Positions 24,606-44,111 of a DNA stretch of 64,000 bases are shown piece after piece. Positions within the stretch are counted from its first letter, which is position 1; every line of letters starts with the position of its first letter. Under the pieces are notes generated by a model. The model was not told where the DNA came from and searched no databases. It saw only the letters and a list, made by a program, of their open reading frames with translations. The DNA is from Candidatus Rokuibacteriota bacterium (GTDB lineage: Bacteria > Methylomirabilota > Methylomirabilia > Rokubacteriales > CSP1-6), in NCBI GenBank assembly GCA_016866775.1, contig VGLJ01000015.1:1-64000 (forward strand), read 5' to 3'. Made by a program: the position numbers and the translations under genes.

Positions 24606-26528
24606 CTATTTCCTCCCCCAGAAGACGGGCACGAGCCAGCCGGCGCCAAGGGCCTTGAGGGTCTCGGGCTTCGGCCTGGTCGTCTTCCGGTCGTAGCCGA
24701 TCTCCGCGTAGAAGACGTTCAGCATCTTCTCCCACTGCTCAGAGATGGCGATCCCCTTGCCCGGCCCGTCGACCGGGGTCGAGCCGTAGCGCTTGGACGG
24801 GTAGTCGGTCTCCGGCCCGAGGCCGCAGCGCAGGAGCACCGCCCGCAGGATGGCCGCCGTGCGGCGGCCGAAGCGCATGGCCTCGTCGACGGTCATGCGC
24901 CAGCCCGTGGCGGCGTTGACGGCGCGGACGAGGCTGTCCAGACGCGTCCGGGTCGTGAAGATGCAGGCGCCGAGCGAGTCCTCGAAGTGCCGGCGGCCGC
25001 GCATGCCCGCGACCATCTTGGCCACCTGCTCGCCGTCGTACGGATTGATGCGCGCGGGAAGCCCGAGCTCTGTCGGGTGGACCGGGTTGCCCGTCTCCAT
25101 CGTCGCGTCGGCCGACGTGCACGTGTCGAGCATCTCTTCCCAGCGGTTGCGATGGTCGTGGCCGCGCGGCACCGCGCCCTTCGCCGTGTAGATCGCGCAG
25201 TCCTTCGCGGGGCCGCCGACCTTCTCGGCCGCGCGCTTGGTGCCCTCGGCCAGGATGTTTCCGAAGCCCTTGCGGCGCGACACGATGTCGATGAGCTGGC
25301 GAATGCCCTTCGCGTCACCCCACTTGAGCTCGAAGCCGAGCTGCTCCCTGGTGATGTAGCCCTTCTCCATGCACTCCATCACCCAGCCGCAGAGCCAGCC
25401 CCACTCGTTCACGTCGAGGCACGCGCGGTCGAGCTCGGTGTTGAGCCACGACACGCTCTCGGGATCGGTGAGCCCGATCGTCCAGCCGGCGCCGGACCAG
25501 CCTTCGTACTCCGGCTCGTCGACGATCTTCCCCTTGTGCTCGCCGCTCCGGATGATCTGCATGTGGCAGTGATGCATGCCGCACGCGTTGCACTGATGCC
25601 CGCGATGGTCGAAGCCCTCGCGCAGCCGCGGCGCCTCCCAGCGCGTCAGGTCCTCGCTGGTCAGGCTCGTCGTGTAGTTCTTGATCGGCAGCGCGCCGAT
25701 CTTGTAGAGGTTCGTCACGCCGGGCAGCGTGCCGTACTCGTAGAGCGAGCGTGCCGACGGATCCGTCTTCAGGTCGTGCGCGATGTCGTCGGCGGCCTGG
25801 ATCAGGCCGCGCGGGTCGGCGGCGCGCAGCGCCTTCGTGCCCTTCACGATCGCCACGGCCTTCAGCTTCTTCTTGCCCATCACCGCGCCGCAGCCGTTCT
25901 TCGACGCGACGTGACCGAAGTCGCCCTGGATGGCGGCGAACTTCACGAGGTTCTCGCCGGCCGGGCCGATCGAGTACACGCTGAGGGCGTGGCCGCCGGT
26001 CTTGAGCTCCGCGTTCAGCGCGTATTGCGTCTCCCACGTGTCCTTGCCGACGAGCCCGCTCGCGTCGCGCAGCTCGATCACGTCGTCGTGGATGTAGAGG
26101 TACTTCCACGTCTTCGACTGCCCCTGGACGACGATGGCGTCGTAGCCGGAGTACTTGAGGTTGGTGCCGAAGAAGCCGTTGGCCTGCGTCGACGTCGGCC
26201 CGTTCGTGCCGGGGCCGATCGTGATGACCGTGAGACCGCCCGTGCCCCACACCGGCAGCCCGGCGAGCGGACCGGTCGCCAGCACGAGCCGGTTCTCCGG
26301 GTCGTCCCAGCTCGCGTTCTTCTTCCCCTTCGCCGTTTCCTTGTAGAGGATCATGGCGCCGAGCCCGATGCCGCCGATGAGGTCGCGCATCTGATCGGCG
26401 CCCCACGGCTCGGCCCAGCATCTACCGCCCGTCATGTCGACGCGCAGGAGCGTGCCGGCATAGCCGCCGGGGAGCGGCGCCTGGGTCGCGGTCTTCTTCT
26501 TCGCCTTCGCTGCGGTCAGGGTCGTCAT
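24606..26528 (-). CDS. Tungsten-type aldehyde:ferredoxin oxidoreductase, catalytic subunit
   Basis: The 640-residue enzyme binds a tungsten (or molybdenum) bis-pterin cofactor and a 4Fe-4S cluster and interconverts aldehydes and acids. Signatures are the N-terminal GGYAGTLLRVDMT, the pterin region GPGTNGPTSTQANGFFG, GPAGENLVKFAAIQGD and the cluster ligands CNACGMHHC with a fourth Cys in SLGACIF. The spacing C-x2-C-x4-C is one residue longer than in the archaeal archetype. It follows the FAD subunit with an ATGA overlap. Together with the ferredoxin subunit it forms a three-gene set resembling the AorABC enzyme of Aromatoleum. The aldehyde substrate is unknown. Confidence 0.87.
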   Translation of the reverse strand: MTTLTAAKAKKKTATQAPLPGGYAGTLLRVDMTGGRCWAEPWGADQMRDLIGGIGLGAMILYKETAKGKKNASWDDPENRLVLATGPLAGLPVWGTGGLTVITIGPGTNGPTSTQANGFFGTNLKYSGYDAIVVQGQSKTWKYLYIHDDVIELRDASGLVGKDTWETQYALNAELKTGGHALSVYSIGPAGENLVKFAAIQGDFGHVASKNGCGAVMGKKKLKAVAIVKGTKALRAADPRGLIQAADDIAHDLKTDPSARSLYEYGTLPGVTNLYKIGALPIKNYTTSLTSEDLTRWEAPRLREGFDHRGHQCNACGMHHCHMQIIRSGEHKGKIVDEPEYEGWSGAGWTIGLTDPESVSWLNTELDRACLDVNEWGWLCGWVMECMEKGYITREQLGFELKWGDAKGIRQLIDIVSRRKGFGNILAEGTKRAAEKVGGPAKDCAIYTAKGAVPRGHDHRNRWEEMLDTCTSADATMETGNPVHPTELGLPARINPYDGEQVAKMVAGMRGRRHFEDSLGACIFTTRTRLDSLVRAVNAATGWRMTVDEAMRFGRRTAAILRAVLLRCGLGPETDYPSKRYGSTPVDGPGKGIAISEQWEKMLNVFYAEIGYDRKTTRPKPETLKALGAGWLVPVFWGRK

Positions 26529-27850
26529 ACGGCCACCGGGCTGTCGCCGGGCGCCTTCGACGGGCGGCCCAGGACGGTTTCGAGGAGCAACGTGCCGGTC
26601 GTGCGTGACGCGATGAACGCCGGCTTGATGTCGAACGGGTTGCGCTCGAGGTGCGCTTTCCACCGGCCGAGCGAGACGCCGGTCTGCACGAGGCCCTTCA
26701 GCATGCCGACGTCGTTCGTCGTCCAGATGTCGCTCGACGGGCCGAGGATGATCGCGCCGGTCAGCCGGTCGCCGCGGAAGAGCAGCTTGCGGTACGCCGG
26801 GCGGTCCTTGCGCAGCCCCGTGATCGTCTCAGCCTTCGCGTCTTCCCACGCGCCGAACGACGCGACGTCGAGGTGGCAGACCTCGACGATGTTCGCGAGC
26901 AGGCTGCCGCGGTAGCGCACGTTCTTCCCCGCCATGTTGGCGCCGACCACGCGCCCGTGCTCCTGCGCCGTCGGCTCGATGGCGTGCACCGCGGCCTCGC
27001 CCGTGACGACGTCCTTGCCCTCGGCGACGTCCCCGGCGCCGTAGACGTTCGGGACGTTCGAGCGCAGCTGGTCGTCGACGACGATCGCCCGCTTGATCGC
27101 GATGCCGGAGTCCTTCAGCCACTCGAGGTTCGTGCGGATGCCCGTCGCCATGATGACGACGTCACCGGCGATGTCCCCGCCCGACTTGAAGCGCAGGCGC
27201 TTCTTGCCTTTCGCGTCCTCGATCCCCGTCACCGCGCTGTTGGTCCGGATCGTGACGCCGCGCTTCTGCAGCCACTCCTGCACGAGCGCCGCCCCGGCGT
27301 CGTCCACCATGCGCGGCAGGATGCGCGGCGCGATCTCGACGATCGTCAGCTTTGCGCCCAGCGCCAGGATCGAGTTCAGGATCGTGAACGCGATGAAGCC
27401 GGCGCCGACCATGACCACGTGCGTGCCGGCCTGGACCTGCGCGATGACCCCGCGCGCTTCCTCGAGCGTCCAGAACGAGTGGACACCCTTGCCGTCGGCG
27501 CCGGGCACCGGGGCCCGCACGGGCGAGGAGCCCGTGGCGATCAGGCAGTCGTCGTACTCGACCCTGGTGCCGTCGTCCAGGGTGCAGGTGTTCGACTTGA
27601 TGTCGAGGTTGGTGGCGCGCCGGCCGAGGTGCGTCTTCACCTGCCACTGCCCGAGCACGGCCGCGGTCGCCGTGAACACGTGCGACTCCGCGATCGAGCG
27701 GTCCAGGTAGTACGGCAGCACCATCCGCGAGTACGGCCGCTCGGCGCTGACGAGCGTGATCTCCGACTTCTCCTGCTCCTCTTCCCGGATCGTCCGGATC
27801 GCGTTGATGCCCGCGGTGCCGCCGCCGATGATCAGATGGCGCACCGGCAT
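26525..27850 (-). CDS. FAD-dependent pyridine-nucleotide oxidoreductase, partner subunit of the aldehyde oxidoreductase
   Basis: The 441-residue two-dinucleotide-binding flavoprotein has an FAD motif (LIIGGGTAGINAIRTIREEE), an ATG motif (CLIATGSSP), an NAD(P) motif (VVMVGAGFIAFTILNSI) and VYGAGDVAEG. It lacks an active disulphide. It overlaps the ferredoxin gene stop (TGATG) and the catalytic-subunit start (ATGA), so the three subunits are made together. In AorABC-type enzymes this subunit carries electrons between the Fe-S subunit and NAD(P); that role is inferred here from context. Confidence 0.85.
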   Translation of the reverse strand: MPVRHLIIGGGTAGINAIRTIREEEQEKSEITLVSAERPYSRMVLPYYLDRSIAESHVFTATAAVLGQWQVKTHLGRRATNLDIKSNTCTLDDGTRVEYDDCLIATGSSPVRAPVPGADGKGVHSFWTLEEARGVIAQVQAGTHVVMVGAGFIAFTILNSILALGAKLTIVEIAPRILPRMVDDAGAALVQEWLQKRGVTIRTNSAVTGIEDAKGKKRLRFKSGGDIAGDVVIMATGIRTNLEWLKDSGIAIKRAIVVDDQLRSNVPNVYGAGDVAEGKDVVTGEAAVHAIEPTAQEHGRVVGANMAGKNVRYRGSLLANIVEVCHLDVASFGAWEDAKAETITGLRKDRPAYRKLLFRGDRLTGAIILGPSSDIWTTNDVGMLKGLVQTGVSLGRWKAHLERNPFDIKPAFIASRTTGTLLLETVLGRPSKAPGDSPVAV

Positions 27851-28350
27851 CAGACGACCCTCCCGTCACCCAGTAAGCGCACGCCGCGCTCGGCGGCGAA
27901 GTCCGCGAGCCAGTCGGCCGTCGCCACCTCTTCGTAGGTGATCGCCGCGGTCGGGCACGCGTCCGCGCAGGCAGGATCGCCGCCGCAGAGGTTGCACTTG
28001 AACGCCTTGCGGGTCGACGTGTCGTAGAACATCGTCCCGTACGGGCAGGCGATCGTGCAGAGCTTGCAGCCCACGCACGTGTCGTCCATCACGTCCTTCG
28101 CGCCGGCGGCGTTGATGGTGATGGCGCCGACGGGGCACGCGGTCATGCACCAGCCCTCCGCGCACTGCGTGCACGTGTAGGGCGCGTACGACGTGTGGCC
28201 CTCGAAGGGCGACACGCGGATGACCGACTTCGCCGGCTGGAACTCGCCGGTCTGCATGTACGAGCACGCGATCTCGCAGCGGAGACAGCCGGTGCAGCGC
28301 GTGGGGTGGATCTTGAGGACGCGGGTCGGGAGCGCGGTCAGGGTCGCCAT
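27850..28350 (-). CDS. Polyferredoxin-type electron-transfer subunit (four 4Fe-4S clusters)
   Basis: The 166-residue protein has sixteen cluster cysteines in four motifs: CTGCLRCEIAC, CTQCAEGWCMTAC, CVGCKLCTIAC and CNLCGGDPACADAC. This is the HycB/DmsB-like arrangement used for electron wiring between redox subunits. In the Aromatoleum AorABC enzyme the equivalent AorA chains several copies into a filament. Whether that happens here is unknown. It is the first subunit gene of the aldehyde oxidoreductase operon, one base after the GYD gene stop. Confidence 0.88.
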   Translation of the reverse strand: MATLTALPTRVLKIHPTRCTGCLRCEIACSYMQTGEFQPAKSVIRVSPFEGHTSYAPYTCTQCAEGWCMTACPVGAITINAAGAKDVMDDTCVGCKLCTIACPYGTMFYDTSTRKAFKCNLCGGDPACADACPTAAITYEEVATADWLADFAAERGVRLLGDGRVV

Positions 28351-28351
28351 C

Positions 28352-28678
28352 TCACCGTTTCTTTCGTGGGGTGCGCTTCGCGGGTCGTCCGTTCGTCTCG
28401 AGGCCGTCGATGAACTGGTCGAGCGGGATCGCCGCCATCGTCATCCCGTGCACGCCGCCGCGCGCGCCGAGCTCGACCGAGATCCGGGAGATGGCGGCGT
28501 TGCTCGGCGCGTCGATGACCGTGACGAAGTCGTAAGGACCGAGGACGGCGTACTGCGCGACCACACGGGCGCCCATGCGCTGGACGTCGGCGTTGACCTT
28601 CTTGATCCAGCCGGGGCGCTCGCGGAGGACTTTGCGCCCCGATTCGGAGAGCGTGCTGAGCATGACGTACAGACCCAT
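28352..28678 (-). CDS. GYD-domain protein
   Basis: The 108-residue protein matches the GYD-domain family (PF08734): YVMLSTLSESGRK at the N-terminus, the eponymous region VLGPYDFVTVIDAPSNAA, and a basic tail PAKRTPRKKR. GYD proteins are ferredoxin-like-fold proteins without a defined reaction and often sit next to redox operons. ATG 28678 follows a GGAGGC ribosome-binding site. Its stop is one base before the ferredoxin start, so it leads the aldehyde oxidoreductase operon. Confidence 0.82.
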   Translation of the reverse strand: MGLYVMLSTLSESGRKVLRERPGWIKKVNADVQRMGARVVAQYAVLGPYDFVTVIDAPSNAAISRISVELGARGGVHGMTMAAIPLDQFIDGLETNGRPAKRTPRKKR

Positions 28679-38020: not shown

Positions 38021-39037
38021 TTAGCGCGTGATCGGGCGGGAGACGGCGCGGCTGAACGTGCAGTTCGGGATCACGCACGAGTGCTTGCCGGAGCCGCCCG
38101 CGACGAGCACGAACACGTCGTCCGGCGACGGCACGCGCGGCGGGCGCGCGTCGGGATCGGTGATCGCGTTCATCCAGCCCGGCCAGTCGTGCATGCCCCA
38201 CATCCCGCTCAGCTTCAGGAGACCGAGCGGCAGGCGCGCGTTCTCGTAGACGTAGCGCTGGACGTCGGCGCGCGAGAAGCCGTCGCCCGCCACGGTCGCC
38301 GCGTGCTCGGGGCCGAGCACGACCATGAGCTGCGCCTGCGAGAAGTAGGCGCCGACGTTCGAGCCGAGGCTCACCGCCGTGTCGGCGACGTTCGCCAGGA
38401 TCCCGGCCGCCGTCGTCGAGACGTGGTCGTTCACGTTGTGCGGCGGCTCGCCGCCGTAGACCGTGACGACGTCGCCCTCGGTGAGCGGCGCCCACGGCGA
38501 CTGCTCCTCGTTCTCGGCGATGCAGTACGAGAACTTCGCGGGGCTCCCCTGCGTCGCCATGTCGCCGCGGCCCGGCCACGCGCCACCGACGTTCATCAGG
38601 ATCAGACGGATCGCGCGGCCGATCGTCGCGTTCGCGCGAAAGCCCGGCCCGAAGCACCCCTGCCCGCCGTGCACGCCGATCGAGGCGCCGTACGGCCCGT
38701 TCACGACGACCAGCGGCGCGACCGGATGCGTGGTCGCCTGCACGCCGTAGAGATTGAAGGCCGGGTCGAGCATCGCCTCGACGGCCGCGACGATGATCGG
38801 GAAGCACGCGGGCTCCGAGCCCGCCATCACCGCGTTGATCGCGAGCTTCTCGAAGGTCGCCGCGCGCCAGAGCGGCGGCATGGCGCCCAGGGAGTGGCCG
38901 GGCGGACGGCCGTCGAGCATCGCGCGCACCCGGTCTTCGGTCGGCGGAACGATCGGCAGCCCGTCGCACCACTCGCGCGCGCAGAACTCGGCGAAGACCG
39001 CTTCGGGGGTGTCGTCGAGCTCCAGCACTTCCGTCAC
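38021..39037 (-). CDS. UGSC-selenoprotein-associated protein of unknown function
   Basis: The 338-residue protein begins at GTG 39037 in a GTGA overlap with the UGSC selenoprotein stop, so the two are made together. It has the N-terminal motif CDGLPIVPPTEDRVRAML, a glycine-rich centre (GVHGGQGCFGPGFRANATIG) and a C-terminal segment GGSGKHSCVIPNCTFSRAV with two Cys. From memory, proteins of this type occur next to, or fused with, UGSC domains; no activity is established. No signal peptide or membrane helix is apparent. A redox role with the selenoprotein is inferred. Confidence 0.7.
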   Translation of the reverse strand: MTEVLELDDTPEAVFAEFCAREWCDGLPIVPPTEDRVRAMLDGRPPGHSLGAMPPLWRAATFEKLAINAVMAGSEPACFPIIVAAVEAMLDPAFNLYGVQATTHPVAPLVVVNGPYGASIGVHGGQGCFGPGFRANATIGRAIRLILMNVGGAWPGRGDMATQGSPAKFSYCIAENEEQSPWAPLTEGDVVTVYGGEPPHNVNDHVSTTAAGILANVADTAVSLGSNVGAYFSQAQLMVVLGPEHAATVAGDGFSRADVQRYVYENARLPLGLLKLSGMWGMHDWPGWMNAITDPDARPPRVPSPDDVFVLVAGGSGKHSCVIPNCTFSRAVSRPITR

Positions 39038-39561
39038 CGGCCGATCAGCCCCGCGAGCTGCTCGACCGCCTGGTGCGCGCGGCGCGCCACGCCTTCGGCC
39101 CGCTCGCCGCCGAGCGGATGATCGACGAGGAGCAGCGGCATCCCGGTGATGCCGAGCGAGGCCATCTCACCGACGGCGAGACGCTGGAAGACGGTGGTGC
39201 CGATCAGGCCGGCGGGCGTCCCCGCCTTCGCGATCTCGATCGAGTCGTGGAGACTCCACGACGTGCAGGACCCTCAGTCCGCGGAGCCGGCGAAGACCAC
39301 GTCGCACTCCTTCGCCATCTCCGCGATGAGGCCGGGCGCGGCGGGCGTGGAGGCGTTGGCCTTGCGCCGGTGCACGATCTTCGCGACCCCGTGCTGCGTG
39401 CGGAGCAGGTCGCCCATCTCGGCGGTGAGCCGGTCGAAGTTCGCCTTCGTGTTGTCGAGGAAGCCGATGGTCAGGCCCCTCCACTGGCGCGGCAACGCCG
39501 GCACGGTCAGGCTCTCGCCGGCCGCCACGCCGACGGGGCTCAGCACGCGGATCTTGCCCAT
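39034..39561 (-). CDS. UGSC-family selenoprotein with in-frame UGA (selenocysteine)
   Basis: The frame starts at ATG 39561 (GGAG ribosome-binding site just upstream) and reaches a TGA at 39276-39274, after CDVVFAGSAD. Reading the TGA as selenocysteine, the same frame continues GSCTSWSLHDSIEIAKAGTP to a TGA at 39036-39034, giving 175 residues. The resulting motif GSAD-U-GSC-TSWSLHDS is the defining signature of the UGSC family, where U is selenocysteine. A seven-base-pair hairpin lies 11 bases after the UGA, as expected of a bacterial SECIS. The real stop overlaps the start of the downstream partner gene. Activity is unknown; a redox role for the U-x2-C site is inferred. Confidence 0.92.
39244..39262 (-). 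promoter_or_regulatory. Candidate bacterial SECIS hairpin
   Basis: In the mRNA, eleven bases after the UGA, GUCGUGG pairs with CCACGAC around a five-base loop AGUCU. The loop begins 18 bases after the UGA and has G at its second position. Both features fit the described bacterial SECIS model (apical loop 16-37 nt downstream with a G among the first two loop bases). It lies within the coding sequence, as in all bacterial selenoprotein genes. Confidence 0.8.
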
Positions 39562-39571
39562 TGGAGTCTCC

Positions 39572-39787
39572 TCAGCTCGGCTTGACGAACCCGGTCGAGC
39601 GCCTGAGCAGACGGCCGAGGTTGTCGTTCAGCTCGCGGACGATCGAACGCTTGATCCGTACGCTAATGTTCTCTACGGGCTCGGATGTGCCCGCGCGGTG
39701 GATCACGAGGGTACCGGTGAACTCCTCCGCGCGCTCGTCGACGGCGCTGAGCCCGCGCAGCGTCAAGATCTCCCATTCCTCTGCCAT
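39572..39787 (-). CDS. Small protein of unknown function upstream of the UGSC selenoprotein
   Basis: The 71-residue protein begins at ATG 39787 (MAEEWEILTLRGLSAVDERA). It is mixed alpha/beta in appearance (GTLVIHRAGTSEPVENISVR) with a basic helical end. The stop is ten bases before the UGSC start, so it leads that operon. Alternative in-frame ATGs upstream (39832, 39817, 39796) would overlap the divergent sugar-kinase gene and are less likely. No family is recognised. Confidence 0.6.
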   Translation of the reverse strand: MAEEWEILTLRGLSAVDERAEEFTGTLVIHRAGTSEPVENISVRIKRSIVRELNDNLGRLLRRSTGFVKPS

Positions 39788-41274: not shown

Positions 41275-42018
41275 ATGAGCGGCGCGCCCCGGCTCATCCG
41301 CGTCGCGGACACCGCGGCCCTGGCCGAAGCCGCCGCCGCGGCGATCCTCCAGACCGCACAGGCCGCGGTGAAGGCGCACGGGCGCTTCACCATCGCGCTG
41401 GCCGGCGGCGCGACGCCGGCCCTCACCTATGCGCGGCTCGCGCAGCCGCCGTTCGTCACCGCGATGCCGTGGGACCGCTCGTGGATCTTCTTCGGCGACG
41501 AGCGGATGGTGCCCGCCGATCATCCCGAGTCGAACTACCGCATGGCCGACGAGCGGCTCCTCGCGAAGGTGCCGCTCGCGCCGGATCACGTCTTCCGCAT
41601 GCGCGGCGAAGGGGAGGATTCGGAGACCGCAGCGACCGAGTACGGCAAGGCGCTCGGGGAGACCTGCGCCGCGCGCCGCGCGGGTGTGCCGCGGCTCGAT
41701 CTCGTCCTCCTCGGGGTGGGCGTCGACGGGCACACGGCGTCGCTGTTCCCCGGCTCGCCGGCGGTGCGCGAGATCTTCCGTCCCGTCGCGGCCGTGCACG
41801 CGGCCGCCGCCGCGGTCCCCGAGCGGCTCACGATGACCCTGCCCGTCATCAACGCCGCCGCGCGCGTCTTCGTGCTCGTGTCCGGCGGCGAGAAGAGCAA
41901 GGTCGTGAAGTCGGTGCTCGTCGAGAAGAAGCTGGTACCGGCGGGCATGGTGAGCCCGGAAGACGGCGAGCTGTGGTGGTTCGTGGACGAGGCCGCGGCG
42001 GCGCTGCTGCCGCGATGA
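41275..42018 (+). CDS. pgl: 6-phosphogluconolactonase
   Basis: The 247-residue enzyme hydrolyses 6-phosphogluconolactone to 6-phosphogluconate. Family motifs are IALAGGATPALTYARL, WIFFGDERMVPADHPESNYR and LVLLGVGVDGHTASLFPGS, which holds the catalytic His. Its TGA overlaps the rpiB-pgi start (ATGA), so translation is coupled within the pentose-phosphate operon. Confidence 0.92.
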   Translation: MSGAPRLIRVADTAALAEAAAAAILQTAQAAVKAHGRFTIALAGGATPALTYARLAQPPFVTAMPWDRSWIFFGDERMVPADHPESNYRMADERLLAKVPLAPDHVFRMRGEGEDSETAATEYGKALGETCAARRAGVPRLDLVLLGVGVDGHTASLFPGSPAVREIFRPVAAVHAAAAAVPERLTMTLPVINAAARVFVLVSGGEKSKVVKSVLVEKKLVPAGMVSPEDGELWWFVDEAAAALLPR

Positions 42019-44111
42019 CGATGCGCGTCGCGGTCGCCGCGGATCACGCGGGGTTTCCGTACAAGGCGGGGATGATCCACGCGCTGAAGGCCGACGGCCA
42101 CGAGGTCTTCGACCTCGGCACGGATTCCGACGCGCCCGCCGACTACCCCGACTTCGCGCGCGCCGTCGGCGTCGCCGTCCGCGAAGGCCGCGTGGACGCC
42201 GGCGTCATCATCTGCGGCAGCGGGGCGGGCGTCTCGATCGCGGCGAACAAGCTGCGCGGCGTGCGCGCGGCGCTCTGTCACGACGTCTTCACCGCGCGTC
42301 AGGCGCGCGAGGACGACGACGCCAACGTGCTGTGCCTCGGGGCGCGCGTGATCGCCGAGGACTTCGCGATCACGCTCGCGCGCGCGTTCCTGGGCGCGCG
42401 CTTCTCGGGCGCCGAGCGGCACCGCCGCCGGCTCGAGAAGGTGCTCGCGCTCGAGCGCGCGGAGATGGGCGAGGGCGCCGCCGTCGACACGCACGCCATC
42501 GCGCCGGCCGAGGCGGCGATCGCCCATCTCGAGTCGATCGACGCCGGCAGGCGCCTCTGGGCCGAAGACCCGGCGCCGTGGACGACGGCCGCGACGACGC
42601 GCGCCGCGATCCTCAACCGCCTCGGATGGCTTCGCGCACCGCAGGAGATGCGACGCCACGTCGCCGACCTCGAGCGGTTCGCCGCCGAGGTGCGCGGCGA
42701 AGGCATCACCGACGTCGTGCTCTTCGGCATGGGCGGCTCGAGCCTCGCGCCCGAGGTCCTGCACGCGGCACTGGGCGCCGCACCCGGCCACCCGGCGCTC
42801 ACCGTGCTCGACACCACGGATCCCGGCGCCATCCGCGCGACGCTCCGGCGCCTCGCACTCCCCCGCACGCTCTTCCTCGTGTCCTCGAAGTCCGGCACGA
42901 CGCCCGAGATGCTCGCGCTCTACCGCTTCTTCCGCGCGGAGACGGACAAGGCGGTCGGCGACGACGCGCGCGCGGGAGGCCACTTCGTCGCGATCACCGA
43001 CGCCGGCACGCCGCTCGAGAAGCTCGCGAGCGAAAGCGGCTTCCGGCGCACGTTCCTCAACGATCCGCGCATCGGCGGGCGTTTCTCCGCCCTGTCGTTC
43101 TTCGGGCTCGTGCCCGCCGCGCTCGTCGGCGCCGATCTCGGGCGGCTCCTCGATCGCGCCGCGGCGATGGCCGCGTCGTGCGGCGCGGAGGTGCCGGTCC
43201 GCGAGAATCCGGGGCTGCGCCTCGGCGCGACGCTGGCCGGGCTCGCGCAGGCCGGCCGCGCCAAGGTCACGCTGATGCTCTCGCCCGGCGTCCGCGCGCT
43301 CGGGATATGGCTCGAACAGCTGCTGACGGAATCGACGGGCGAGCTCGGGCGCGGGCTCGTCGTCGTCGACGACGAGCCGCTCGGCGTGCCGGACGCCTAC
43401 GGTACGGATCGCGTCTTCGTGGCCGTGCGCCTCGGACGCGATGAGGCCCTCGACGCGACCGCCGCCGCGCTGGAGTCCGCCGGTCACCCGGTGATCCGGG
43501 TCACGATGTCCGACGCGTACGACGTGCCCGCGGAGTTCTTCCGGTGGGAGGTCGCGACCGCCGCCGCGGGCATCGTGCTCGGTCTCAATCCCTTCGACGA
43601 GCCGAACGTGGCGCAGGCGAAGGACGCGACGACGACCGCGCTCGCGCGGTTCCTCGAGACCGGGCGTCTGCCGGAGTGGCCGTCCGACTCGGTCGACGAG
43701 CTCGCGCGCGTGCTCAGCGAGGCGCGGCCCGGTGACTACATCGGGCTGCTCGCGTACCTGACGCCGGCCGAGGCGACGACGACCGCGCTGCAGAAGATGC
43801 GCGCGATGCTGCGCGACCGCACGCGGCTCGCCACGACGATGGGCTACGGTCCGCGGTATCTCCACTCGACCGGCCAGCTCCACAAGGGCGGGCCGCCGAC
43901 CCCGATCCTCGTCCTCTTCACGGCCGCGCACGAGGAGCTGCCCATTCCCGGCGAACGCTACGGGTTCGCGACGCTCGAGATGGCGCAGGCGCTCGGAGAC
44001 CTCGCCACGTTGCGCGCGGCACAGCGCCGCGCGCTGTGGCTTCCCCTCGACGGCGCGCCGGTGGATGCGCTCGCGCGCGTCACGTCGACGCTCGAAAGGA
44101 AGGTTCATTGA
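42015..44111 (+). CDS. Fused ribose-5-phosphate isomerase B / glucose-6-phosphate isomerase
   Basis: The 698-residue protein joins two enzymes. Residues 1-145 are RpiB (VAVAADHAGFPYKAGMIHAL, CGSGAGVSIAANK with the catalytic Cys, ANVLCLGARVIAEDFA). Residues about 160-698 are a phosphoglucose isomerase of the type otherwise fused to transaldolase (FGMGGSSLAPEV, SSKSGTTPEML, NPFDEPNVAQAKDATT, LHSTGQLHKGGPPTP). There is no stop or frame change between them. The fusion would link ribulose/ribose-5-P and glucose-6-P/fructose-6-P interconversion in one polypeptide. The start is ATG 42015 or 42021. Its stop overlaps the gnd start (TGATG). Confidence 0.9.
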   Translation: MTMRVAVAADHAGFPYKAGMIHALKADGHEVFDLGTDSDAPADYPDFARAVGVAVREGRVDAGVIICGSGAGVSIAANKLRGVRAALCHDVFTARQAREDDDANVLCLGARVIAEDFAITLARAFLGARFSGAERHRRRLEKVLALERAEMGEGAAVDTHAIAPAEAAIAHLESIDAGRRLWAEDPAPWTTAATTRAAILNRLGWLRAPQEMRRHVADLERFAAEVRGEGITDVVLFGMGGSSLAPEVLHAALGAAPGHPALTVLDTTDPGAIRATLRRLALPRTLFLVSSKSGTTPEMLALYRFFRAETDKAVGDDARAGGHFVAITDAGTPLEKLASESGFRRTFLNDPRIGGRFSALSFFGLVPAALVGADLGRLLDRAAAMAASCGAEVPVRENPGLRLGATLAGLAQAGRAKVTLMLSPGVRALGIWLEQLLTESTGELGRGLVVVDDEPLGVPDAYGTDRVFVAVRLGRDEALDATAAALESAGHPVIRVTMSDAYDVPAEFFRWEVATAAAGIVLGLNPFDEPNVAQAKDATTTALARFLETGRLPEWPSDSVDELARVLSEARPGDYIGLLAYLTPAEATTTALQKMRAMLRDRTRLATTMGYGPRYLHSTGQLHKGGPPTPILVLFTAAHEELPIPGERYGFATLEMAQALGDLATLRAAQRRALWLPLDGAPVDALARVTSTLERKVH

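Follow-up and report, generated by a model that had tools for sequence, protein, structure and literature searches.

On the minus strand of the 64-kb window (the whole stretch of DNA analysed, from a soil-type bacterium related to Rokubacteria), a reading frame appears to end at a TGA (39274..39276) and then continues, open, as far as the next gene. The locus raises two questions: whether this codon is read as selenocysteine (Sec), and what the resulting protein might do with the product of the gene that it overlaps.

The in-frame TGA and its hairpin

The frame (39034..39561, minus strand; PF24696, NF041046, translation, AF2 model) starts with ATG at 39561, passes the TGA at codon 96, and extends for 79 further codons to a second TGA at 39036-39034, giving a protein of 175 aa including Sec96. 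The preliminary description had placed frame, internal TGA, and boundaries accurately to the base. The terminal TGA overlaps the GTG (39037-39035) of a gene for a 338-aa protein by 4 nt, and the coding signal persists across the TGA at 39276, which ranks it with the window's strongest examples of this kind. The motif around Sec is GSAD-U-GSC-TSWSLHDSIEIAKAG. Identity as a member of the UGSC family, read earlier from this motif, is borne out by a PF24696 match of 148.4 bits (curated cut-off 25) over residues 6-172, across the UGA. The match to NF041046 (113.5 bits) falls short of the 125 bits that NCBIfam sets for equivalogs, a score which three UGSC paralogues from the same genome exceed; the gene is a member of the Pfam family outside the NCBI equivalog threshold.

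UGSC has been in the literature since 2007-08 (PMC2398784; 2026 review, PMC13188914), with 255 Sec genes in the GOS survey and a place among the most abundant selenoproteins of aquatic metagenomes (PMC2398784). The family already has Pfam and NCBIfam entries, so the earlier suggestion of an undescribed system needs qualifying; the gene is a new member of a known family, and ordinary by name. The family has nevertheless stood for about 18 years without a function and with what is probably a wrong fold assignment.

The TGA could be explained without any selenoprotein, as an error of sequencing, the stop of a pseudogene, or the true end of the protein, and TGA does terminate other genes normally, as well as the UGSC gene itself. 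Against this stands the comparison with other UGSC genes. The genome (assembly G000, 5.1 Mb, 97.5% complete) encodes eight of them, each carrying TGA at this position; UGSC is present in 45 of 60 related genomes, with exactly one TGA in every match listed (about 150). Three relatives (L059, L085, and L091) have the Cys codon TGC in place of the Sec TGA, as CGTS in L059 and L085 and as CGSC in Roseicella (L091), the substitution that the preliminary description had proposed to look for by aligning homologues. L108, which has Sec, and the Cys form L059 share 63% identity; closely related members can thus carry either residue at this codon. selA was not detected in the genome of L085, nor in the metagenome-assembled genome of L059, though Sec forms are present in the latter and it may be incomplete. 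Reading of the UGA as Trp, or another recoding, was considered and rejected because Cys replaces it in relatives and TGA terminates the same gene.

The machinery for Sec insertion, predicted earlier from this one gene, is complete in the assembly, where a search that included tRNA-Sec found selC, selA, and selB adjoining on contig C43 and selD on contig C31. The selD gene (G000:C31:24695-25639, L129) contains one in-frame TGA of its own and probably encodes a selenoprotein itself.

A hairpin (39244..39262, minus strand) follows the UGA, with a stem (GUCGUGG/CCACGAC, 39262-39256 and 39250-39244) paired at seven of seven positions and an apical loop (AGUCU, 39255-39251) that starts 18 nt past the UGA. 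Among synonymous sequences with protein and codon usage held fixed, 0.5% retain a 7-bp stem and NGU loop; all seven canonical UGSC genes of the genome retain both. Across 92 distinct Sec genes, 90% of cells in the stem are paired, against 79% when partner columns are shuffled (maximum 81.5% in 1000 shuffles, which ignore the relatedness of the sequences), and pairing falls to 22-55% when columns are slid by 1-3. At the innermost position, 63 sequences have G-C and 24 have C-G. The codon in the loop, whether for Ser, Cys, or Gly, is NGT in 81 of 82 cases, whereas in the rest of these genes NGT makes up 191 of the 1779 codons for the three residues (p ~ 1e-71), so that a constraint on the RNA overrides the amino acid; Ser in the loop is encoded by AGT in 60 of 61 cases, against 38 of 644 elsewhere in these genes. 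Since NGT is common to loop codons for different amino acids, this test is less sensitive to relatedness than the column shuffles. The exact loop is missing from ten divergent Sec members, whose hairpins, judged by eye, are shifted. The hairpin folded alone has an uninformative z-score of -0.20, and an Rfam search gave no SECIS model match here, even at permissive E.

With its small apical loop and conserved G downstream of the UGA, the candidate hairpin of the preliminary description is, on these comparative loop-codon and stem statistics, a genuine bacterial SECIS. The comparative evidence shows UGA 39276 to be read as Sec, with the SECIS just downstream, and the product is almost certainly a real Sec protein. 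Conservation of the TGA, a domain match that spans it, Cys at the same codon in relatives, the Sec machinery, and the loop-codon constraint together refute the stop or sequencing-error reading for practical purposes, leaving it next to no probability.

The 338-aa partner and the 71-aa frame

The gene overlapped by the UGSC gene (38021..39037, minus strand) encodes a protein of an unnamed family, linked to UGSC by adjacency, fusion, and co-occurrence. No Pfam or NCBIfam family matches it, and nothing recurrent appears when relatives are included. The genome contains eight partner genes, one beside each of its eight UGSC genes. Among 96 UGSC genes, comprising the loci of this genome and loci from named organisms (Rokubacteria, Chloroflexi/SAR202, Binatia, Proteobacteria, Acidobacteria, Poribacteria, and Pseudonocardia), 91 lie within 1 kb of a partner gene that is read from the same strand, with both gene orders represented (67 and 24). 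Because the partner served as query in collecting these loci, the unbiased test of linkage is the genome-wide count: in 60 relatives the two genes are both present in 45 and both absent in 15, with a copy-number correlation of r = 0.98. Six Poribacteria genomes have an unlinked partner gene, and each of them contains exactly one UGSC gene elsewhere. UGSC and partner form one uninterrupted frame in 27 cases, two of which (L035 and L084) are the nearest orthologues. Sequence comparison makes it very probable that the two proteins are an obligate two-component unit.

A divergent fusion is found in the same genome on contig C1 (L033, 9209-10849), where a 547-aa frame joins a UGSC domain with the motif USTC to the partner and adjoins genes for HpaB-type and luciferase-like monooxygenases. 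In 2008 a conserved 'Unknown_1' domain fused to UGSC was described (Zhang & Gladyshev, PMC2398784).

The AF2 model of the partner is confident (pLDDT 95), and a Foldseek search against PDB and viral models gave no match at E<=0.001; the partner is provisionally predicted to have a new fold. PDB sequence searches with UGSC and partner returned chance matches only, such as designed TIM barrels, which arose from one low-complexity-like stretch. Two candidate identities for the partner, GrdE and the N-terminal half of GrdB, were rejected (hhalign against GrdE, 0.1%), as was mutual homology of UGSC and partner.

The third frame of the locus (39572..39787, minus strand), which ends 10 nt before the UGSC ATG, encodes a 71-aa protein that matches no Pfam or NCBIfam family and has homologues upstream of UGSC at four Rokubacteria loci (L035, L036, L037, and L084). 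On this distribution it is a lineage-specific extra of the closest Rokubacteria loci. An operon of all three genes had been proposed; both flanking frames are present and the link between UGSC and the 338-aa protein stands, with the 71-aa protein falling outside the tight unit.

Fold and remote homology of UGSC

UGSC has been placed among Trx-fold selenoproteins (PMC2398784, PMC13188914). The AF2 model (pLDDT 93.9, 81 sequences) instead predicts a Rossmann-like domain of five beta-alpha units, in which Sec96 lies between a strand (88-94) and a helix (97-112), and thioredoxin is absent from the 50 best PDB matches to the model. Judging from this prediction, UGSC is not thioredoxin-like, and the published fold is probably wrong.

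When the 81 UGSC proteins were compared with 18,950 NCBIfam models, the recurrent matches outside UGSC were five models of Grd/Prd protein B: TIGR01917 (44 members), GrdF (25), TIGR01918 (15), GrdH (10), and PrdB (6), with a best E of 1.9e-6 (TIGR01917). An hhalign comparison of UGSC with the C-termini of six GrdB proteins from Rokubacteria relatives gave 95.6% probability, with Sec aligned on Sec and the alignment running through a common E..G(I/L)PT stretch; 26 unrelated neighbour families used as decoys reached at most 5.3%. In all likelihood, then, UGSC and the C-terminal domain that bears Sec in GrdB and PrdB are remotely homologous. The likeness is confined to that domain: hhalign of UGSC against the N-part of GrdB gave 0.3%, PF07355 (the N-terminal ~347 aa of GrdB) did not match the first of the 81 members, and it is not among the 25 families that they match most. 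Sequence search found no solved GrdB structure.

GrdB was not matched in four relatives (G003, G004, G005, and G012) that each have five or six UGSC genes, so the UGSC system does not require glycine reductase. Neither the obligate partner nor the placement with Grd/Prd is stated in the open-licence literature searched, and as far as that literature shows, the partner link and the homology to GrdB/PrdB are new.

The same Rokubacteria-like genome also encodes a glycine-reductase-type selenoprotein set on contig C11: GrdE/GrdB-type pairs with an in-frame TGA in GrdB (L127, G000:C11:45500-61500) and a GrdA gene with an in-frame TGA (G000:C11:43307-43744). In relatives, small proteins at L123-L126 (~1400-1950) match only the C-terminal part of PF07355 and stop at a TGA that is followed in frame by PVCHQSxGL...; a further GrdB-related Sec family (UPVC) is seemingly present there, truncated in ordinary gene calling.

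Possible function and relation to known selenoenzymes

The genes that recur near UGSC encode tricarboxylate-type (TctC) and TRAP solute receptors, ABC transporters, CoA transferases, enoyl-CoA hydratases, TPP enzymes, MmgE/PrpD, and M20/Ldh_2 enzymes. They differ from copy to copy, and genomes have up to 12 UGSC copies. The UGSC gene of the window and its orthologues lie among pentose-phosphate genes, together with one for an FGGY kinase; with such wide variation, no single pathway is implied, and the pattern fits paralogues specialised for different substrates. The pentose-phosphate cluster of the window (6-phosphogluconolactonase, 6PGD-like, and G6PD genes) includes a 698-aa protein (42015-44111) that joins RpiB (LacAB_rpiB) to a PGI-like domain. 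Elsewhere in the window, a block at 24606-28678, with a 640-aa protein and ferredoxin-like and NAD(P)H-oxidoreductase-like neighbours, recurs within a few kb of the UGSC locus in L035 and L084.

In GrdB/PrdB, Sec serves to form and break bonds between selenium and substrate carbon (PMC10298544); one homologue of GrdB has been turned to the cleavage of C-F bonds (PMC10838667). The best explanation as a whole, to which we give about even odds (a probability near 0.5), is a two-component, substrate-specific selenoenzyme. The partner, with its predicted new fold, would bind and activate a small organic substrate, probably of carboxylate type, and so stand in for the pyruvoyl GrdE/PrdA of glycine and proline reductase. 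The Sec96 selenolate would attack a C-N, C-O, or C-X centre of the substrate to give a covalent selenium adduct; in most members Cys99 of the UxxC motif would then free the product by forming a Se-S bond, and cellular thiols would reduce that bond and regenerate Sec. Paralogues may be specialised by substrate and used in catabolism. Selenolate-on-substrate chemistry, taken by itself, falls slightly short of even odds in our judgement, and any named substrate would be a very doubtful guess. Such a selenenylsulfide could not be universal, because a number of Sec members (UGSS in L059, L074, L077, L093, and L099) have Ser in place of Cys99; as these members indicate, Cys99 is not indispensable in every protein of the family.

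The preliminary description had suggested a redox system. A thioredoxin-type function of the Sec protein, in thiol-disulfide exchange or as a peroxidase, would suit the UxxC motif kept in most members and the published listing with Trx-fold selenoproteins (PMC2398784, PMC13188914), and we regard it as unlikely: the confident model is Rossmann-like, the second Cys is missing in UGSS members, and up to 12 copies per genome near catabolic genes fit substrate specialisation better than redox defence. The nearest families are Grd/Prd protein B, and this homology points away from redox in the thioredoxin sense, towards Sec attacking carbon centres of a substrate. Slightly less likely again is a non-redox enzyme (isomerase, racemase, or lyase) that acts on organic acids bound by the partner, with Sec as nucleophile or acid/base. 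Rossmann-like Asp/Glu racemases use an active-site Cys, and the predicted fold, with Sec at the end of a strand leading into a helix, is compatible with such a role, as are the organic-acid transport and CoA-ester genes nearby; homology, however, is to the Grd/Prd reductases instead of racemases, and near-universal retention of Sec suggests a chemistry that Cys performs poorly. Binding or detoxification of metals or metalloids has been proposed for other small selenoproteins such as Sao/UXX-star (PMC13188914). For UGSC, with the partner as accessory protein, it is highly improbable, since metal-resistance genes are absent from the recurrent neighbours and no metal-binding family matches recurrently.

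More broadly, the two-component selenoenzyme might represent an unrecognised class, a reading that we hold only tentatively, as possible and less probable than the chemistry itself. Its members would carry out selenium-on-carbon chemistry of the Grd/Prd kind, with the pyruvoyl subunit replaced by a substrate-activating one of new fold. They would be widespread among bacteria of soil and ocean (Rokubacteria, SAR202 Chloroflexi, Binatia, Betaproteobacteria, and Poribacteria) and would serve, in up to ~12 copies per genome, the breakdown of different organic compounds. If this is true, selenium chemistry on carbon extends beyond anaerobic amino-acid fermenters. The link to protein B and the single obligate partner make the function of UGSC testable.

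Among known systems, the gene resembles the UGSC family as published (PF24696; NF041046; PMC2398784) in its full-length domain match, UGSC motif, and Sec; it differs in that the partner is split off as an overlapping gene, and the Trx-like fold is unsupported here. With GrdB/GrdF/GrdH (PF07355, TIGR01917) it probably shares a remotely homologous Sec-bearing C-terminal domain, whereas the GrdB N-terminal domain and a pyruvoyl GrdE are both missing, an unrelated protein standing in the place of the latter. D-proline reductase PrdB (TIGR04483) is likewise a small Sec protein with UxxC, which six UGSC members match weakly; its PrdA pyruvoyl proprotein is absent from the UGSC system, which has a very different partner. 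Fluoroacetate reductase FarB/FarE (PMC10838667) offers a precedent for diversification of Grd protein B homologues, in that case to C-F bonds, but FarB and FarE are true homologues of GrdB and GrdE, and UGSC is a separate branch.
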